A stretch of 44,838 bases of DNA from Ilumatobacteraceae bacterium (lineage in GTDB: Bacteria > Actinomycetota > Acidimicrobiia > Acidimicrobiales > Ilumatobacteraceae). Of the stretch, positions 7,571 through 12,230 are shown in pieces. Each line of letters opens with the position of its first letter. The first letter of the stretch is position 1. The translations under genes and the position numbers were made by a program. The notes below the pieces were generated by a model that did not search any database, was not told the DNA's origin, and saw only the letters and a program-made list of their open reading frames with translations. The stretch spans positions 1 through 44,838 of the forward strand of contig JAHEKY010000015.1 in the NCBI GenBank assembly GCA_024644465.1, written 5' to 3'.

Positions 7571-7613
7571 CGCGTGAGGTGTTTGCGCACCACGAGCGCA
7601 CCTACCTCACGCG
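7571..7613. terminator. Nested inverted repeat after the transsulfuration genes
   Basis: Outer arms CGCGTGAGGT (7571-7580) and ACCTCACGCG (7604-7613) enclose inner arms TGCGC (7584-7588) and GCGCA (7596-7600). It lies 19 bp after the stop at 7551 and before the promoter of the next gene. No T-run follows, so it is a hairpin-type end or a relic repeat. Its right arm and flank, CCTCACGCGTTCG, recur at 12164-12176 just after aioA. Confidence 0.5.
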
Positions 7614-7641
7614 TTCGGGTCGAGTTGCGGGGGCGATGATC

Positions 7642-8566: not shown

Positions 8567-8602
8567 CGCAGCAGTGCCGTTCCGGCGTCGCGTCGGGCAG
8601 GC

Positions 8603-9049
8603 TCAGGACGCCGGACCGGTGACCGTGAGCGTCGCCTCCATCCCGGCGTCACGGTGCCCGGGAACACTGCAGTACAGGACGTGGGTACCGGCGCCGAGCT
8701 CGACCGAGCCCGTGGCGCTCGCGCCGGGCTGCGCTTCGAGCACGAAGCCCGGTGCTCCGACGATCAGCAGGTTGTGGAAGATCGCGCCCTCGTTGACCAT
8801 CGTGATCTCCAAGTTGCCCGATGGCCGCGAACCCGGCTCGAGTTCGTACGCGAACTCGGTCGCGATGATCACCTCGCTCACGGCCGACCCTCCGCCGGTG
8901 ATCGGCTTGCTGAGCGCATCGGTGGTCAGCGCAAACGTGGCCAAGGCGACGAACACCGTGACGTGAACGGCCACGCCCAGCCCACCGGCGAACCAGAGGA
9001 AGCGCTCGGCGCCCACCGGTGACTCGGGCAGATCCGCAGCTTCGTCCAC
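8603..9049 (-). CDS. Membrane-anchored cupredoxin (blue copper protein)
   Basis: 148 residues. An N-terminal hydrophobic anchor at about 18-43 leaves the C-terminal domain outside the membrane. That domain is a plastocyanin/azurin-like fold with a full type-1 copper set: H92 (FHNL), C127, H132 and M137 (YCSVPGHRDAGM). Start is GTG 9049, supported by TACGTT 6 nt upstream. It is divergent from aioB-aioA and shares an 88-bp control region with them. Azurins and c-type cytochromes are known electron acceptors of arsenite oxidase, so this protein is a natural acceptor for the adjacent enzyme; that pairing is inference. The convergent oxidoreductase gene ends 36 bp away. Confidence 0.92.
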   Translation of the reverse strand: MDEAADLPESPVGAERFLWFAGGLGVAVHVTVFVALATFALTTDALSKPITGGGSAVSEVIIATEFAYELEPGSRPSGNLEITMVNEGAIFHNLLIVGAPGFVLEAQPGASATGSVELGAGTHVLYCSVPGHRDAGMEATLTVTGPAS

Positions 9050-9055
9050 GGGTCG

Positions 9056-9061
9056 AACGTA
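9056..9061 (-). promoter_or_regulatory. -10 box, leaderless type (cupredoxin gene)
   Basis: TACGTT on the minus strand, 6 nt before GTG 9049. Confidence 0.55.
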
Positions 9062-9083
9062 TGGGCACCCGACGTTTGGGAGA

Positions 9084-9101
9084 TAGGGCCCTCCGGCCCT
9101 A
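9084..9101. promoter_or_regulatory. Candidate operator shared by the cupredoxin and aioBA promoters
   Basis: A perfect inverted repeat, TAGGGCC-CTCC-GGCCCTA. Its centre (9092.5) is exactly equidistant, 34 bp, from the centres of the two divergent -10 boxes (9058.5 and 9126.5). It reaches the expected -35 region of both promoters. One dimeric regulator could control both genes. No regulator gene is visible nearby. Confidence 0.55.
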
Positions 9102-9123
9102 AAAGCCAGCCCGTCGTCCCCCG

Positions 9124-9129
9124 TAGGGT
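9124..9129 (+). promoter_or_regulatory. -10 box, leaderless type (aioB)
   Basis: TAGGGT, 8 nt before ATG 9138. Confidence 0.55.
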
Positions 9130-9137
9130 CGGCTCAC

Positions 9138-9674
9138 ATGCCGATGACTCGCCGAGAATTCCTGTTCGCCGGCGTCGCCACCGGGGCGTTCGTGGGGGCC
9201 GGTATCGTGCTCCCGGTCGCGATCTCCCTCACCGACGACGACGGCAACCCCGACTCCGAAGCGCTGCTCTACCCCCGGCAGCGGGTCGCCTCGCTGTCGG
9301 AGCTGCGCAACGGTGAACCCGTCTTCTTCGACTACCCGCTCGTCGGTCAGTCGAACATCCTCGTCAAGGTCGGCGCCCCGGCCGAGGCGGGGATCGGGCC
9401 GGACGGCGACATCGTCGCGTTCTCCAACCTGTGCACCCACATGGGCTGTCCGCTCATCGAGTTCCAGGCCGATCACGGCGTGCTCGGGCCGTGCCCCTGC
9501 CACTTCACGACGTTCGACCTCGCCCGCGACGCGCAGGTCACGCTCGGACAGGCGACGCAACAGCTGCCGCGGGTGCTCCTGACACCGGACGGCGACGACA
9601 TCTACGCCGTCGGCATCCTCCGGCTCGTCTACGGCTACAGCGATTCACTCACGGGCGGGGAGCGCGTGTCATGA
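9138..9674 (+). CDS. aioB: Arsenite oxidase small subunit, Rieske [2Fe-2S] protein
   Basis: 178 residues. It opens with a Tat signal, TRREFLF at 4-10, followed by a hydrophobic segment at about 10-30, so the folded complex is exported. The Rieske site is complete: C99 and H101 (CTHMGC) with C119 and H122 (CPCH) bind the cluster. C104 and C121 form the potential disulfide pair. The second half continues CHFTTFD instead of the cytochrome bc1-type CHGS, as in AioB proteins. It passes electrons from the molybdenum subunit to a periplasmic carrier. Its stop overlaps the aioA ATG by 4 bp. A TANNNT box 8 nt upstream supports ATG 9138. Confidence 0.92.
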   Translation: MPMTRREFLFAGVATGAFVGAGIVLPVAISLTDDDGNPDSEALLYPRQRVASLSELRNGEPVFFDYPLVGQSNILVKVGAPAEAGIGPDGDIVAFSNLCTHMGCPLIEFQADHGVLGPCPCHFTTFDLARDAQVTLGQATQQLPRVLLTPDGDDIYAVGILRLVYGYSDSLTGGERVS

Positions 9675-12160
9675 CCAACGCAGCCCAATCCGCATCGGTT
9701 CCCCTGCCCCCGCCTGACGCCACCAACAAGCAGATCTGCTGCGAGTACTGCCCGGTCGGCTGCGGCTATCGCGTGTACTCGTGGCCGGTCGGCACACAGG
9801 GAGGCAACGCGGCCGATGAGAACGCCCTCGGCGTCGAGTACCCGGCCTCGGCACTCTCGGGCCGCTGGATCTCCGAGAACATGCACACGGTCGTCGACAT
9901 CGACGGGCGTGACCACAACGTCGTGATCATTCCCGACGCCGACATCCAAGCGGTCAACATCGGCGGCGAGCACAGCATCCGCGGCGGTGCACTCGCGAAG
10001 AAGCTCTACACGGGCAGCGGGCCGACCGCCGACCGGTTGCGAACGCCGTACCTGCGGGTGCGCGGCGACCTCGTCCCGATCTCGTGGGAGATGGCGAGCG
10101 ACCTCGTCGCCGACCTCGGCCGGCATGTCATCGACAACTACGGCGAGCTGGCCTGGGGCATGAAGGTCTACAGCTACCAGTTCTTCCAGAACACGTTCGC
10201 GGCCACCAAGCTGGCGTTCGCGAGCGTCGGCACGCCGAACTATTCGCCGCACCACGCGCCTGCCGAGGGTGACGACACCCCCGGCCTGTCCGACGCCGGG
10301 ATCGACGCGTTCGGTGCCGCCTACGAGGACTTCAGCGAAGCCGACGTGCTGTTCATCGCGGGCAGCGATCCCTACGAGACCAAGACGATCGCGTTCACCA
10401 AGTGGATGGTCGAAGGCGGCGCCGACATCATCTTCGTCGACCCGCGCCGCACCTACACGGCGTCGCATGCGCTGGCCAACGGCGGCATGCACCTGCAGCT
10501 CAAGCCGGGCACCGACACCGCGCTGTACAGCGCGATCGTGCGCGAGATCATCGACAACGGCTGGGAGGACCGCGACTTCATCGACCGGTACACCGCCTCG
10601 CGCGCCGAGCTCGACGCCGAGGGTGGGTGGCGGCGCCAGCTGTTCGGACGGACGTTCGACGAGCTGCGCGAGTACCTGTTCTCCCGCGACGAGTTCACGC
10701 CCGACGGGGCTGCGGCGATCACCGGGGTTCCGGCCGATCAGATCCGCGAGGCCGCCAGACGCCTCAGTGGCGGCGGAGCGGGCGAGCGGCCGAAGGTGGC
10801 GGTGGCGTTCGAGAAGGGCGTGTACTGGTCGCACAACTACGAGAACACCGCGGCGGTCGCCAACCTCGGCGTGGTGCTCGGTTCGACCGGCCGGCCGGGG
10901 CGCTCGGTCGGGCGGATGGGCGGTCACCAGCGCGGCGGTCAGTCGGCGGCCGGCTACCCCAAGGACAAGTCGCCCCACGACTACCTGGGCAACAAGGTCG
11001 AGATGGACACCGAGCGGTGGCTCGTCGAGGGCAACACCCGCTTCCGCTGGGTCGTCGGTCAGAACTGGCTCGGCGCGATGGGGGCGACCCAGGCCCTGCG
11101 CGAGGCGACCGAACAGCTCCTGAGTGTCGGCCCCCAGGTGACGTCGACCGATCCGGACATCGCCTTCGACCAACTGAAGGCCCGCATCGACGCCGGCGGC
11201 ATGGTCCTCGTCCACCAGGAGACGTACCACAACGAGTCGACGGCGCTTGCCGACATCATCCTGCCCGCCGGCGCCTGGGGTGAGGACGACTACGTCCGCA
11301 ACAACGCCGAACGGCGGATGCGGCTCTACCAGAAGATCATGGACCCGCCGGGCGATGCCAAGCCCGACTGGCAGATCTTCGCGATGGTCGCGAAGAAGAT
11401 GGGCTACGACGGCTTCGACTGGGAGGACACGAACGAGATCTTCGAAGAGGCCGCACCACGGTCGGCCGGTTCGCGCAAGGATTGGCTCGCGCTGGTCGAG
11501 TTCGCCCAGGCCGAGGGCCGGCGGACCCACGACGTACTGCTCGACTTCGGCACGACGGGCATCCAGACGCCGATCAAGCTCGAGGACGGTCAACTCGTCG
11601 GGACACCCCGGCTGCACGCCGACCTCACGTTCAAGTCCGATTCGGGCAAGGCGAACTTCGTGTTCGCCGACTGGGACGAAGTCGCCAAGCGCAACGACAT
11701 CCTCGGCCCGGCCGACGGGGAGATGTGGGTCTTGAACGGACGCGTCAACGAGCTGTGGAACAACCTGTCGGACTTCACCCGCCGCAAGATCGCCGACGAT
11801 CGCTGGCCGATGAACTGGTTGGAGATCCACCCCGACGACGCGGCCGCGATGGGGATCGAATCCGGTGATCTCGTCAGCATCGAGTCGGACAATGTGCTCG
11901 ATCAGGTCGGCAGAACGGTGACGGGCAGCTTCACCGCGGTTGCGTACGTCTCCGACATCGTGCCGCCCGGAGTGACGTTCACCTACTTCATGTTCCCCGG
12001 GAGCCCGGCGAACTCGGTCGTGTCCGGCGACACGACGCTCCAGCCGATCAACCTGCGCTACAACTTCAAGCTCGGGAAGGGGCGGGTCCGCAAGATCGGC
12101 ACGACCGGCCTGGCGGAGACGATGTCGTTCGCGCCGCGCAATCTCGCGCTGGGTCCCTGA
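9671..12160 (+). CDS. aioA: Arsenite oxidase large subunit, molybdopterin enzyme (AioA family)
   Basis: 829 residues, the usual AioA length. The N-terminus holds C24, C27 and C31 (CEYCPVGC), and exactly 71 residues after C31 is S102. This is the CX2CX3CX70S pattern that gives AioA its [3Fe-4S] cluster instead of [4Fe-4S]. Bis-MGD domains follow, with FIAGSDPYETKT, DPRRTYTASHA and a C-terminal MopB cap. GRMGGHQRGG at 414-423 supplies R415 and H419, matching the substrate-pocket Arg/His pair known in AioA. The other pocket pair seems to be H194 and D202, where characterised enzymes have His and Glu; this relies on remembered alignment. There is no signal peptide, so export would ride on AioB. 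Substrate arsenite is inferred; a relative with another substrate is possible. Confidence 0.87.
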   Translation: MTNAAQSASVPLPPPDATNKQICCEYCPVGCGYRVYSWPVGTQGGNAADENALGVEYPASALSGRWISENMHTVVDIDGRDHNVVIIPDADIQAVNIGGEHSIRGGALAKKLYTGSGPTADRLRTPYLRVRGDLVPISWEMASDLVADLGRHVIDNYGELAWGMKVYSYQFFQNTFAATKLAFASVGTPNYSPHHAPAEGDDTPGLSDAGIDAFGAAYEDFSEADVLFIAGSDPYETKTIAFTKWMVEGGADIIFVDPRRTYTASHALANGGMHLQLKPGTDTALYSAIVREIIDNGWEDRDFIDRYTASRAELDAEGGWRRQLFGRTFDELREYLFSRDEFTPDGAAAITGVPADQIREAARRLSGGGAGERPKVAVAFEKGVYWSHNYENTAAVANLGVVLGSTGRPGRSVGRMGGHQRGGQSAAGYPKDKSPHDYLGNKVEMDTERWLVEGNTRFRWVVGQNWLGAMGATQALREATEQLLSVGPQVTSTDPDIAFDQLKARIDAGGMVLVHQETYHNESTALADIILPAGAWGEDDYVRNNAERRMRLYQKIMDPPGDAKPDWQIFAMVAKKMGYDGFDWEDTNEIFEEAAPRSAGSRKDWLALVEFAQAEGRRTHDVLLDFGTTGIQTPIKLEDGQLVGTPRLHADLTFKSDSGKANFVFADWDEVAKRNDILGPADGEMWVLNGRVNELWNNLSDFTRRKIADDRWPMNWLEIHPDDAAAMGIESGDLVSIESDNVLDQVGRTVTGSFTAVAYVSDIVPPGVTFTYFMFPGSPANSVVSGDTTLQPINLRYNFKLGKGRVRKIGTTGLAETMSFAPRNLALGP

Positions 12161-12230
12161 CCGCCTCACGCGTTCGCGGCCCGGCGGCGATCCGCTGTCG
12201 ATTTCGCGATGGATCGGGTAGACCAGAGAC

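Follow-up and report, generated by a model that had tools for sequence, protein, structure and literature searches.

In a 44,838-nucleotide stretch of DNA from an Ilumatobacteraceae bacterium (GenBank assembly GCA_024644465.1, contig JAHEKY010000015.1; hereafter the window), we analyzed a three-gene block encoding a molybdopterin large subunit of the AioA/IdrA family, a Rieske small subunit and a membrane-anchored cupredoxin, which can be regarded as a self-contained redox unit (Table 1). Sequence comparisons suggest that the large subunit is neither a canonical AioA (arsenite oxidase) nor an IdrA (iodate reductase); it groups with homologues from Acidimicrobiia and two Chloroflexota members in a distinct clade beside IdrA. 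This placement, together with the partnership between the enzyme and the cupredoxin, is considered probable. A first-pass annotation had described the block as an arsenite oxidase linked to a membrane cupredoxin in an actinobacterium. The AioAB-type organization with two subunits and a linked cupredoxin was supported, and the open reading frames (ORFs) bore out both the 4-bp overlap of the two enzyme genes and their divergence from the copper protein gene. The large-subunit ATG start (9671) lies within the ATGA overlap, while a 909-aa ORF starting at 9431 was discarded as an over-extension of the large subunit into the small-subunit gene.

Table 1. Features of the three-gene block and its surroundings (positions in the window).
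Feature	Position	Strand	Details
Cupredoxin, membrane-anchored blue (type-1) copper protein	8603-9049	-	148 aa, GTG start; predicted ligands H92, C127, H132, M137
Intergenic region between the divergent genes, 88 bp	9050-9137	.	putative promoter region for both genes
Tat-type Rieske [2Fe-2S] small subunit	9138-9674	+	178 aa, TRREF Tat-type motif
Molybdopterin/3Fe-4S large subunit, AioA/IdrA family, putative third clade	9671-12160	+	829 aa
Stretch without counterpart in the same-genus genome G001	8574-12212	.	right border possibly 12164 (13-base match inside the G001 spacer)

Both subunits were first compared with family models and known structures. The large subunit scored 456 bits (E 2.2e-136) against NCBIfam TIGR02693, above the cut-off of 359.05, and the small subunit 128.4 bits against TIGR02694 (cut-off 95.65); the best PDB sequence match was AioA for the large subunit, with E about 2e-89, and AioB for the small subunit, with E about 1e-32. 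The AlphaFold model of the large subunit (mean predicted local distance difference test score, pLDDT, 89.6) matched 11 AioA chains with template modelling (TM) scores, relative to the query, of 0.84-0.86, all others among the 50 matches listed reaching 0.70 at most. The claimed C-X2-C-X3-C-X70-S spacing (C24, C27, C31 and S102), given in PMC3758308 as the 3Fe-4S motif of arsenite oxidase, was verified. The R415/H419 pair was also present, although it is not specific to AioA, the same residues being found in IdrA-type rows. As both the motif spacing and the pair are common to IdrA-type proteins (alignment rows with data), these features do not show AioA. An ArxA/ArrA identity was not supported, given the score of 27.9 bits with the ArrA model NF041714 (cut-off 1600) and the occurrence of Ala, not Cys, at the molybdenum (Mo)-ligand position, no ArxA sequence being included in the trees.

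Homologues were gathered by peptide patterns from one genome per species across 84,980 species (42 loci) and from 296 members of the phylum, 395 members of the class, 301 Chloroflexota genomes and named plasmids. A tree of 66 rows left out 17 of the 83 rows as duplicates (11) or as partial or broken sequences (L028, L030, L046, L048, L051 and L052); a more careful tree was calculated on 34 of the 83, and L028, L030, L046 and L051 were placed later in a tree of 28. The IdrA-type set consisted of the protein from the Azonexus plasmid NZ_CP151407 and of others identified by adjoining idrP1/P2 genes, which served as stand-ins for the proven Denitromonas proteins. The counts on 24 query-clade loci given below exclude L046, which groups with L031 in the 28-row tree.

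The large subunit showed 54-71% identity to the query clade (Acidimicrobiia and two Chloroflexota metagenome-assembled genomes, MAGs). Identity fell to 39-47% with IdrA-type proteins and L031, and to 29-33% with canonical AioA. Canonical AioA formed one clade both in the 66-row tree (15/15 rows, Shimodaira-Hasegawa-like approximate likelihood ratio test, SH-aLRT, 100) and in the 34-row tree (nine rows, support 100/99), and was separated from the query clade, IdrA and L031 by a branch of 1.13 (SH-aLRT 100) and 0.95 (100/100), respectively. The query clade was a group of its own, with support of 97/99 in the 34-row tree and 98/98 in the 28-row tree, standing beside and not inside the IdrA clade (100/99 in the 34-row tree). 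Long branches are present in these trees, and the order among L031, IdrA and the query clade is tentative. The approximately unbiased (AU) test, for which the groupings were chosen with knowledge of the first tree, rejected both the grouping with AioA and that of the window's protein with Idr apart from its own clade (p 1.6e-15).

On the basis of the trees and the AU test, a canonical AioA identity was rejected, and the corresponding assignment in the first-pass annotation was not sustained: the protein is located beside IdrA, and its exclusion from the known AioA clade is firm, while its placement in a non-arsenite clade holds only in part, as no tested member was placed in the clade. A plain AioAB arsenite oxidase, a reading that both NCBIfam cut-offs, the motif spacing and R415/H419 might have suggested, is therefore rejected as a phylogenetic claim and considered very improbable. 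Moreover, full-length query-clade members of the class scored 397-460 bits with TIGR02693 versus 990-1280 for nine Chloroflexota AioA, and the same cut-off was also passed by the IdrA-type locus of genome G595 (413 bits) and by L031 (368 bits). The query clade may correspond to the "unknown clade" that Reyes-Umana et al. described in 2021, with Halorubrum and a bacterium of the Dehalococcoidia as members. By its published description, that clade is also located just outside IdrA and has Chloroflexota members, and no peroxidase genes are reported for its Dehalococcoidia member.

Other members of the family were also noted. L031 and L046, from Deltaproteobacteria Ga0077550 and a Chloroflexi MAG, form a further AioA/IdrA-family lineage (100/99 in the 28-row tree); in L031, the Ser of the cluster motif is replaced by Ala and the Mo-ligand position is occupied by Arg. 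L090, on the Cytobacillus firmus plasmid NZ_CP107028.1, encodes an AioA-like protein that branches deeply, shares the N and E residues of AioA and has Lys as its Mo-ligand-position residue; it adjoins ars and pst genes.

The active site was then examined residue by residue. The query pocket residues H194, A198, D202, R415 and H419 align with NT-26 H199, A203, E207, R447 and H451 and are fixed in all 24 query-clade loci. When compared with the substrate site described for the A. faecalis enzyme (His195, Glu203, Arg419 and His423; PMC3758308), three out of four residues are identical and Glu is replaced by Asp (D202). AioA rows have H, E, R and H at the substrate positions (15/15); the first of these His is followed directly by Asn, and a Glu lies two positions beyond the last. 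In the query clade (24/24 loci) the substrate positions read H, D, R and H, the first His is followed directly by another His, and an Arg lies two positions beyond the last; in comparison with NT-26, Glu207 is thus Asp, Asn200 is His and HQEG is HQRG. IdrA-type rows carry Asp after the first His (24/24), where the query has His195, and Ser (16), Ala (5) or Asp (3) at the Glu position, so that D202 faces Ser or Ala in 21 of the 24. The Mo-ligand position is occupied by Ala198 in 24/24 query-clade loci and by Ala (14) or Gly (one) in the 15 AioA rows. The query clade thus carries a third active-site set, H195-A198-D202-R421, unlike AioA and most IdrA-type rows.

The copper ligands of the cupredoxin are invariant in 5/5 aligned homologues, and its model (mean pLDDT 75.8) showed an N-terminal helix (13-46) and a cupredoxin fold, with a Foldseek probability of 1.00 for the cupredoxin matches. 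The top rows were CuA domains, nitrite and nitrous oxide reductases and a Bacillus cupredoxin, auracyanin 6kol ranking 38. Ligands and fold indicate a type-1 blue copper protein with predicted copper binding, which resembles the auracyanin-like and sulfocyanin-like tethered cupredoxins in its single-Cys type-1 site, fold and N-terminal anchor, and differs from them in that the only Pfam match, SoxE, was below the cut-off (20.2 bits versus 21) and the PDB sequence search returned no match.

The divergent gene upstream of the small subunit encodes a membrane cupredoxin in 6 of the 20 query-clade loci with upstream sequence (the window, L014, L016, L025, L026 and L139). In 7 others the product is a one-haem cytochrome c, recognised from Pfam matches in L013 and L015, from clustering with the L015 protein in L017 and L024, and from the CXXCH motif by itself in L019, L020 and L045. 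A haem protein is encoded some genes downstream of the enzyme in L022 and L033, while the motif scan showed neither a cupredoxin nor a haem carrier beside the enzyme in L018, L023, L027, L029 and L138. The occurrence of a cupredoxin or an unrelated cytochrome c in one slot is good evidence that this slot holds the electron partner of the enzyme. The cupredoxin would then be a genuine partner, the slot evidence being silent on the direction of electron flow.

The partnership was also suggested by the genomic distribution of the block. The query-type gene was found in 15 of 395 class genomes, which represent six families. The window's genome was the sole carrier of its genus or family, and none was detected in 9 further same-genus and 14 same-family genomes. 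Gene order around the block is kept in same-genus genomes lacking it: the cystathionine genes directly adjoin otsA in G006, G007 and G008, they are separated from it by 1.9-2.4 kb of other, unidentified DNA in G002 and G009, and in G001, whose OtsA is 92% identical, a luciferase-like gene is followed by otsA after 121 bp. The window and G001 are 84% identical up to 8573 and 76% from 12213, and the stretch absent from G001 contains just the three genes, which would have been gained by the window's lineage or lost by that of G001 as one unit. As the empty site lacks just these three genes, it provides a link between the cupredoxin and the enzyme that does not depend on the slot. A short hairpin-like repeat, CCTCACGCGTTCG, was observed in the window at 7605-7620 and at the right border (12164-12176), as well as at L130:179-230; it takes the form of a hairpin in the spacer of the empty G001 site. 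Outside the class, the Chloroflexota sample (301 genomes) contained no query-type gene other than in its centre genome, indicating that Chloroflexota members are rare; the two Chloroflexota MAG members may result from wrong binning.

The Rieske subunit contains the ligand motifs C99-X-H101 and C119-X2-H122 and the disulphide pair C104/C121. In a table and tree of 38 rows, covering part of the loci, the disulphide cysteines were present in 17/18 query-clade rows, 0/9 IdrB rows and 6/9 AioB rows. They represent a weak marker, because only six of the nine AioB rows keep them and because their absence is noted in NT-26 and hyperthermophilic archaea (PMC3758308). The Rieske loop of the query is longer, as in IdrB, and the Rieske tree leaves the deep split unresolved (70/79).

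These data led us to propose a working scheme. The Rieske subunit would carry the large subunit via the twin-arginine translocation (Tat) pathway to the outside of the cytoplasmic membrane, as its Tat-type motif and the report on IdrB/IdrA (PMC8692401) suggest. The large subunit is expected to bind bis-pterin molybdenum with no protein ligand, Ala198 being at the ligand position, and electrons might pass singly along the Mo, 3Fe-4S and Rieske centres by analogy with AioAB. The membrane-tethered cupredoxin would be the one-electron partner linking the enzyme to the respiratory chain, a one-haem cytochrome c taking its place in sister loci.

The most likely reaction, which we advance tentatively, would be an oxidation in which arsenite, or a comparable trivalent oxyanion, gives its electrons to the cupredoxin, the substrate being inferred. 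Arsenite is favoured because the pocket keeps His, the acid, Arg, His and the no-ligand Ala, because the idrP peroxidases are missing, and because the published clade next to IdrA is said to include an arsenite-oxidising Halorubrum, located just outside IdrA with a Dehalococcoidia bacterium described as lacking the peroxidases (PMC8692401). Haloarchaeal AioA are described as arsenite oxidisers placed deep in the AioA lineage (PMC7331816).

Several results weigh against arsenite oxidation. A tree constrained to unite the query clade with AioA is worse by 80.7 log-likelihood units (p-AU 3e-107), the sister group of the clade is IdrA, and the deep IdrA branches are taken in PMC10100899 to argue that iodate reduction preceded arsenite oxidation in the family. 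The three AioA-invariant positions N, E and E (15/15) are H195, D202 and R421 in the query, and the R421 state is found in 22/23 IdrA-type rows with data. Furthermore, 15 arsenic and aio probes gave no gene of that kind in the 24 query-clade loci, the sole match in the clade being an L023 receiver domain with 29.5% identity to AioR; no acr3 was found in the window's genome (82.86% complete), acr3 was over the cut-off in 2/17 query-clade genomes and it was no commoner in class members with the gene (3/15) than in the others (93/380; Fisher p 1.0).

The weight of the arsenic genes was evaluated on control loci. Of seven plasmid loci, six with a canonical AioA and one from Cytobacillus, the 15 arsenic probes matched in six; the remaining one, from Thermus, has an ArsR-family gene by annotation only. 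No arsenic probe matched in nine Chloroflexota AioA loci with flanks of about 1.4 kb; with flanks of about 6 kb, ars genes occurred in 1/8 chromosomal Chloroflexota AioA loci, and acr3 was over the cut-off in 2/9 AioA-bearing Chloroflexota genomes. As only 1/8 of these Chloroflexota loci had ars genes, the arsenic neighbourhood was dropped as a functional test for not being diagnostic, and the acr3 counts gave no signal in either direction. The reported lack of aioXSR was confirmed, with no aioX, aioS or aioR match anywhere in the window.

It is also possible, and only slightly less likely than arsenite oxidation, that the enzyme is an oxyanion reductase of the IdrA side, acting on iodate or a similar substrate, in which electrons would flow from the bc complex through the cupredoxin or cytochrome c and the Rieske centre to Mo; in that case the cupredoxin would be the donor and not the acceptor suggested in the first-pass annotation. 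The position of the query clade on the IdrA and L031 side of the long branch, the rejected AioA grouping, the longer Rieske loop and the view that iodate reduction is ancestral (PMC10100899) are all consistent with such an activity. So is R421, since Arg in place of the AioA Glu would favour a charged substrate and suit an anion better than neutral arsenite. Against this, the IdrA-type Azonexus row is the sole exception among the 23 rows with data, having Cys at this position, and Azonexus is presumably a member of the same order as the proven iodate reducer Denitromonas. Ala precedes the third cluster cysteine in 22/22 query-clade rows with data (window excluded) and in 21/22 IdrA-type rows; however, the window's own protein has Gly30, as in AioA. 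HisKA_3/LuxR-type two-component systems also recur beside the enzyme, but were tallied with no background.

The distribution of idrP genes argues against the reductase. No idrP1/P2 match was found in any of the 24 query-clade loci, the region upstream of the small-subunit gene being available for 20 of them, while at least one idrP-like gene was detected beside 20/23 IdrA-type loci and, in addition to these, both genes beside L106/L137. The three IdrA-type loci with no idrP have no upstream sequence; where such sequence exists, one idrP gene or more is present in 21/21. Both idrP probes match a single ORF in L035 and L052. Conserved idrP synteny is described as marking iodate reducers (PMC8692401), and the Rieske disulphide cysteines present in the query are absent from the nine IdrB rows examined.

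A third activity, in which the enzymes of Acidimicrobiia and some Chloroflexota would use a different oxyanion or metalloid, would account for the fixed residue set (24/24 loci), the support of 97/99 for the clade and its own electron-carrier slot. It is nevertheless unlikely, as the core pocket residues are those of characterised enzymes and no scanned neighbour in the window, nor any of the 25 commonest of 150 neighbour families in sister loci, points to another substrate. Considered as a third family clade with an exchangeable copper/haem partner, the group may possibly catalyze an oxyanion reaction unlike both known ones or represent a preserved intermediate between arsenite oxidation and iodate reduction.

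Some recurrent neighbours were observed around the enzyme. Two-component genes (HisKA_3 kinases and LuxR-type regulators) occur near it in L013, L017, L018, L023-L026, L030 and L107, as a raw tally with no background. Genes for universal stress proteins are found in L013, L015 and L018, and pyridoxamine-oxidase-like genes in L013 and L030. A hypoxia-type regulation of the locus would be a guess.

As a whole, the system shares with AioAB (A. faecalis, NT-26, Thermus and Chloroflexota) the two subunits, with the Rieske gene before the large-subunit gene, the X70 cluster motif, the absence of a Mo ligand, the His/Arg/His pocket and the fold, and differs from it in identity, clade, lack of aioXSR and the attached cupredoxin gene. 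With the iodate reductase IdrAB-P1P2, proven in Denitromonas IR-12 (PMC8692401), it has in common a higher identity, the long branch away from AioA, the mostly conserved HQRG and the long Rieske loop, whereas idrP1/idrP2 were not found, His195 replaces Asp and the disulphide cysteines are kept. Fold, cofactors and partner types are therefore already known, and a branch in this place has been printed as an unknown clade. In the open-licence literature we found no description of how the clade is distributed in Acidimicrobiia, of its invariant third residue set, of the slot in which cupredoxin and cytochrome replace each other or of the empty site, and no paper pairing aioA with halocyanin, or arsenite oxidation with Actinobacteria and a cupredoxin; in PMC7798605, Acidimicrobiia appear as 16S taxa.

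These results have a consequence for annotation. As the NCBIfam large-subunit cut-off spans three clades, pipelines using it will annotate query-clade genes as arsenite oxidase, and the occurrence of arsenite oxidisers in Acidimicrobiia may be overestimated. The nature of the clade lying between the two known enzymes was left open in PMC8692401, and the 24 loci described here, with their invariant residues, interchangeable electron carrier and small three-gene unit, make the question testable.

Finally, a few IdrA-type and unrelated loci deserve mention. An idrP1-idrP2-idrB-idrA-type cluster, whose large subunit groups with Azonexus IdrA, was observed at L137:3534-9005 in G595, a genome of the same order as the window's. 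From its sequence, iodate reduction may reach Actinomycetota, a group for which no paper linking iodate and idrA to Actinobacteria was found in the open-licence literature. The Azonexus hydrophilus plasmid NZ_CP151407.1 (L085) carries two cytochrome c peroxidase genes and idrB- and idrA-type genes, together with a sigma-54 regulator, a cytochrome c and moaA, near Tn7-like genes, and its record labels the IdrA-type enzyme as arsenate reductase (azurin). In the complete genome of Aliamphritea spongicola (L052) the IdrA-type gene is interrupted, the match being split over separate reading-frame pieces. Formate-dehydrogenase-like matches with a single in-frame TGA were observed at G000:C36:21327-23249 and in its relatives, which suggests the use of selenocysteine in these genomes.

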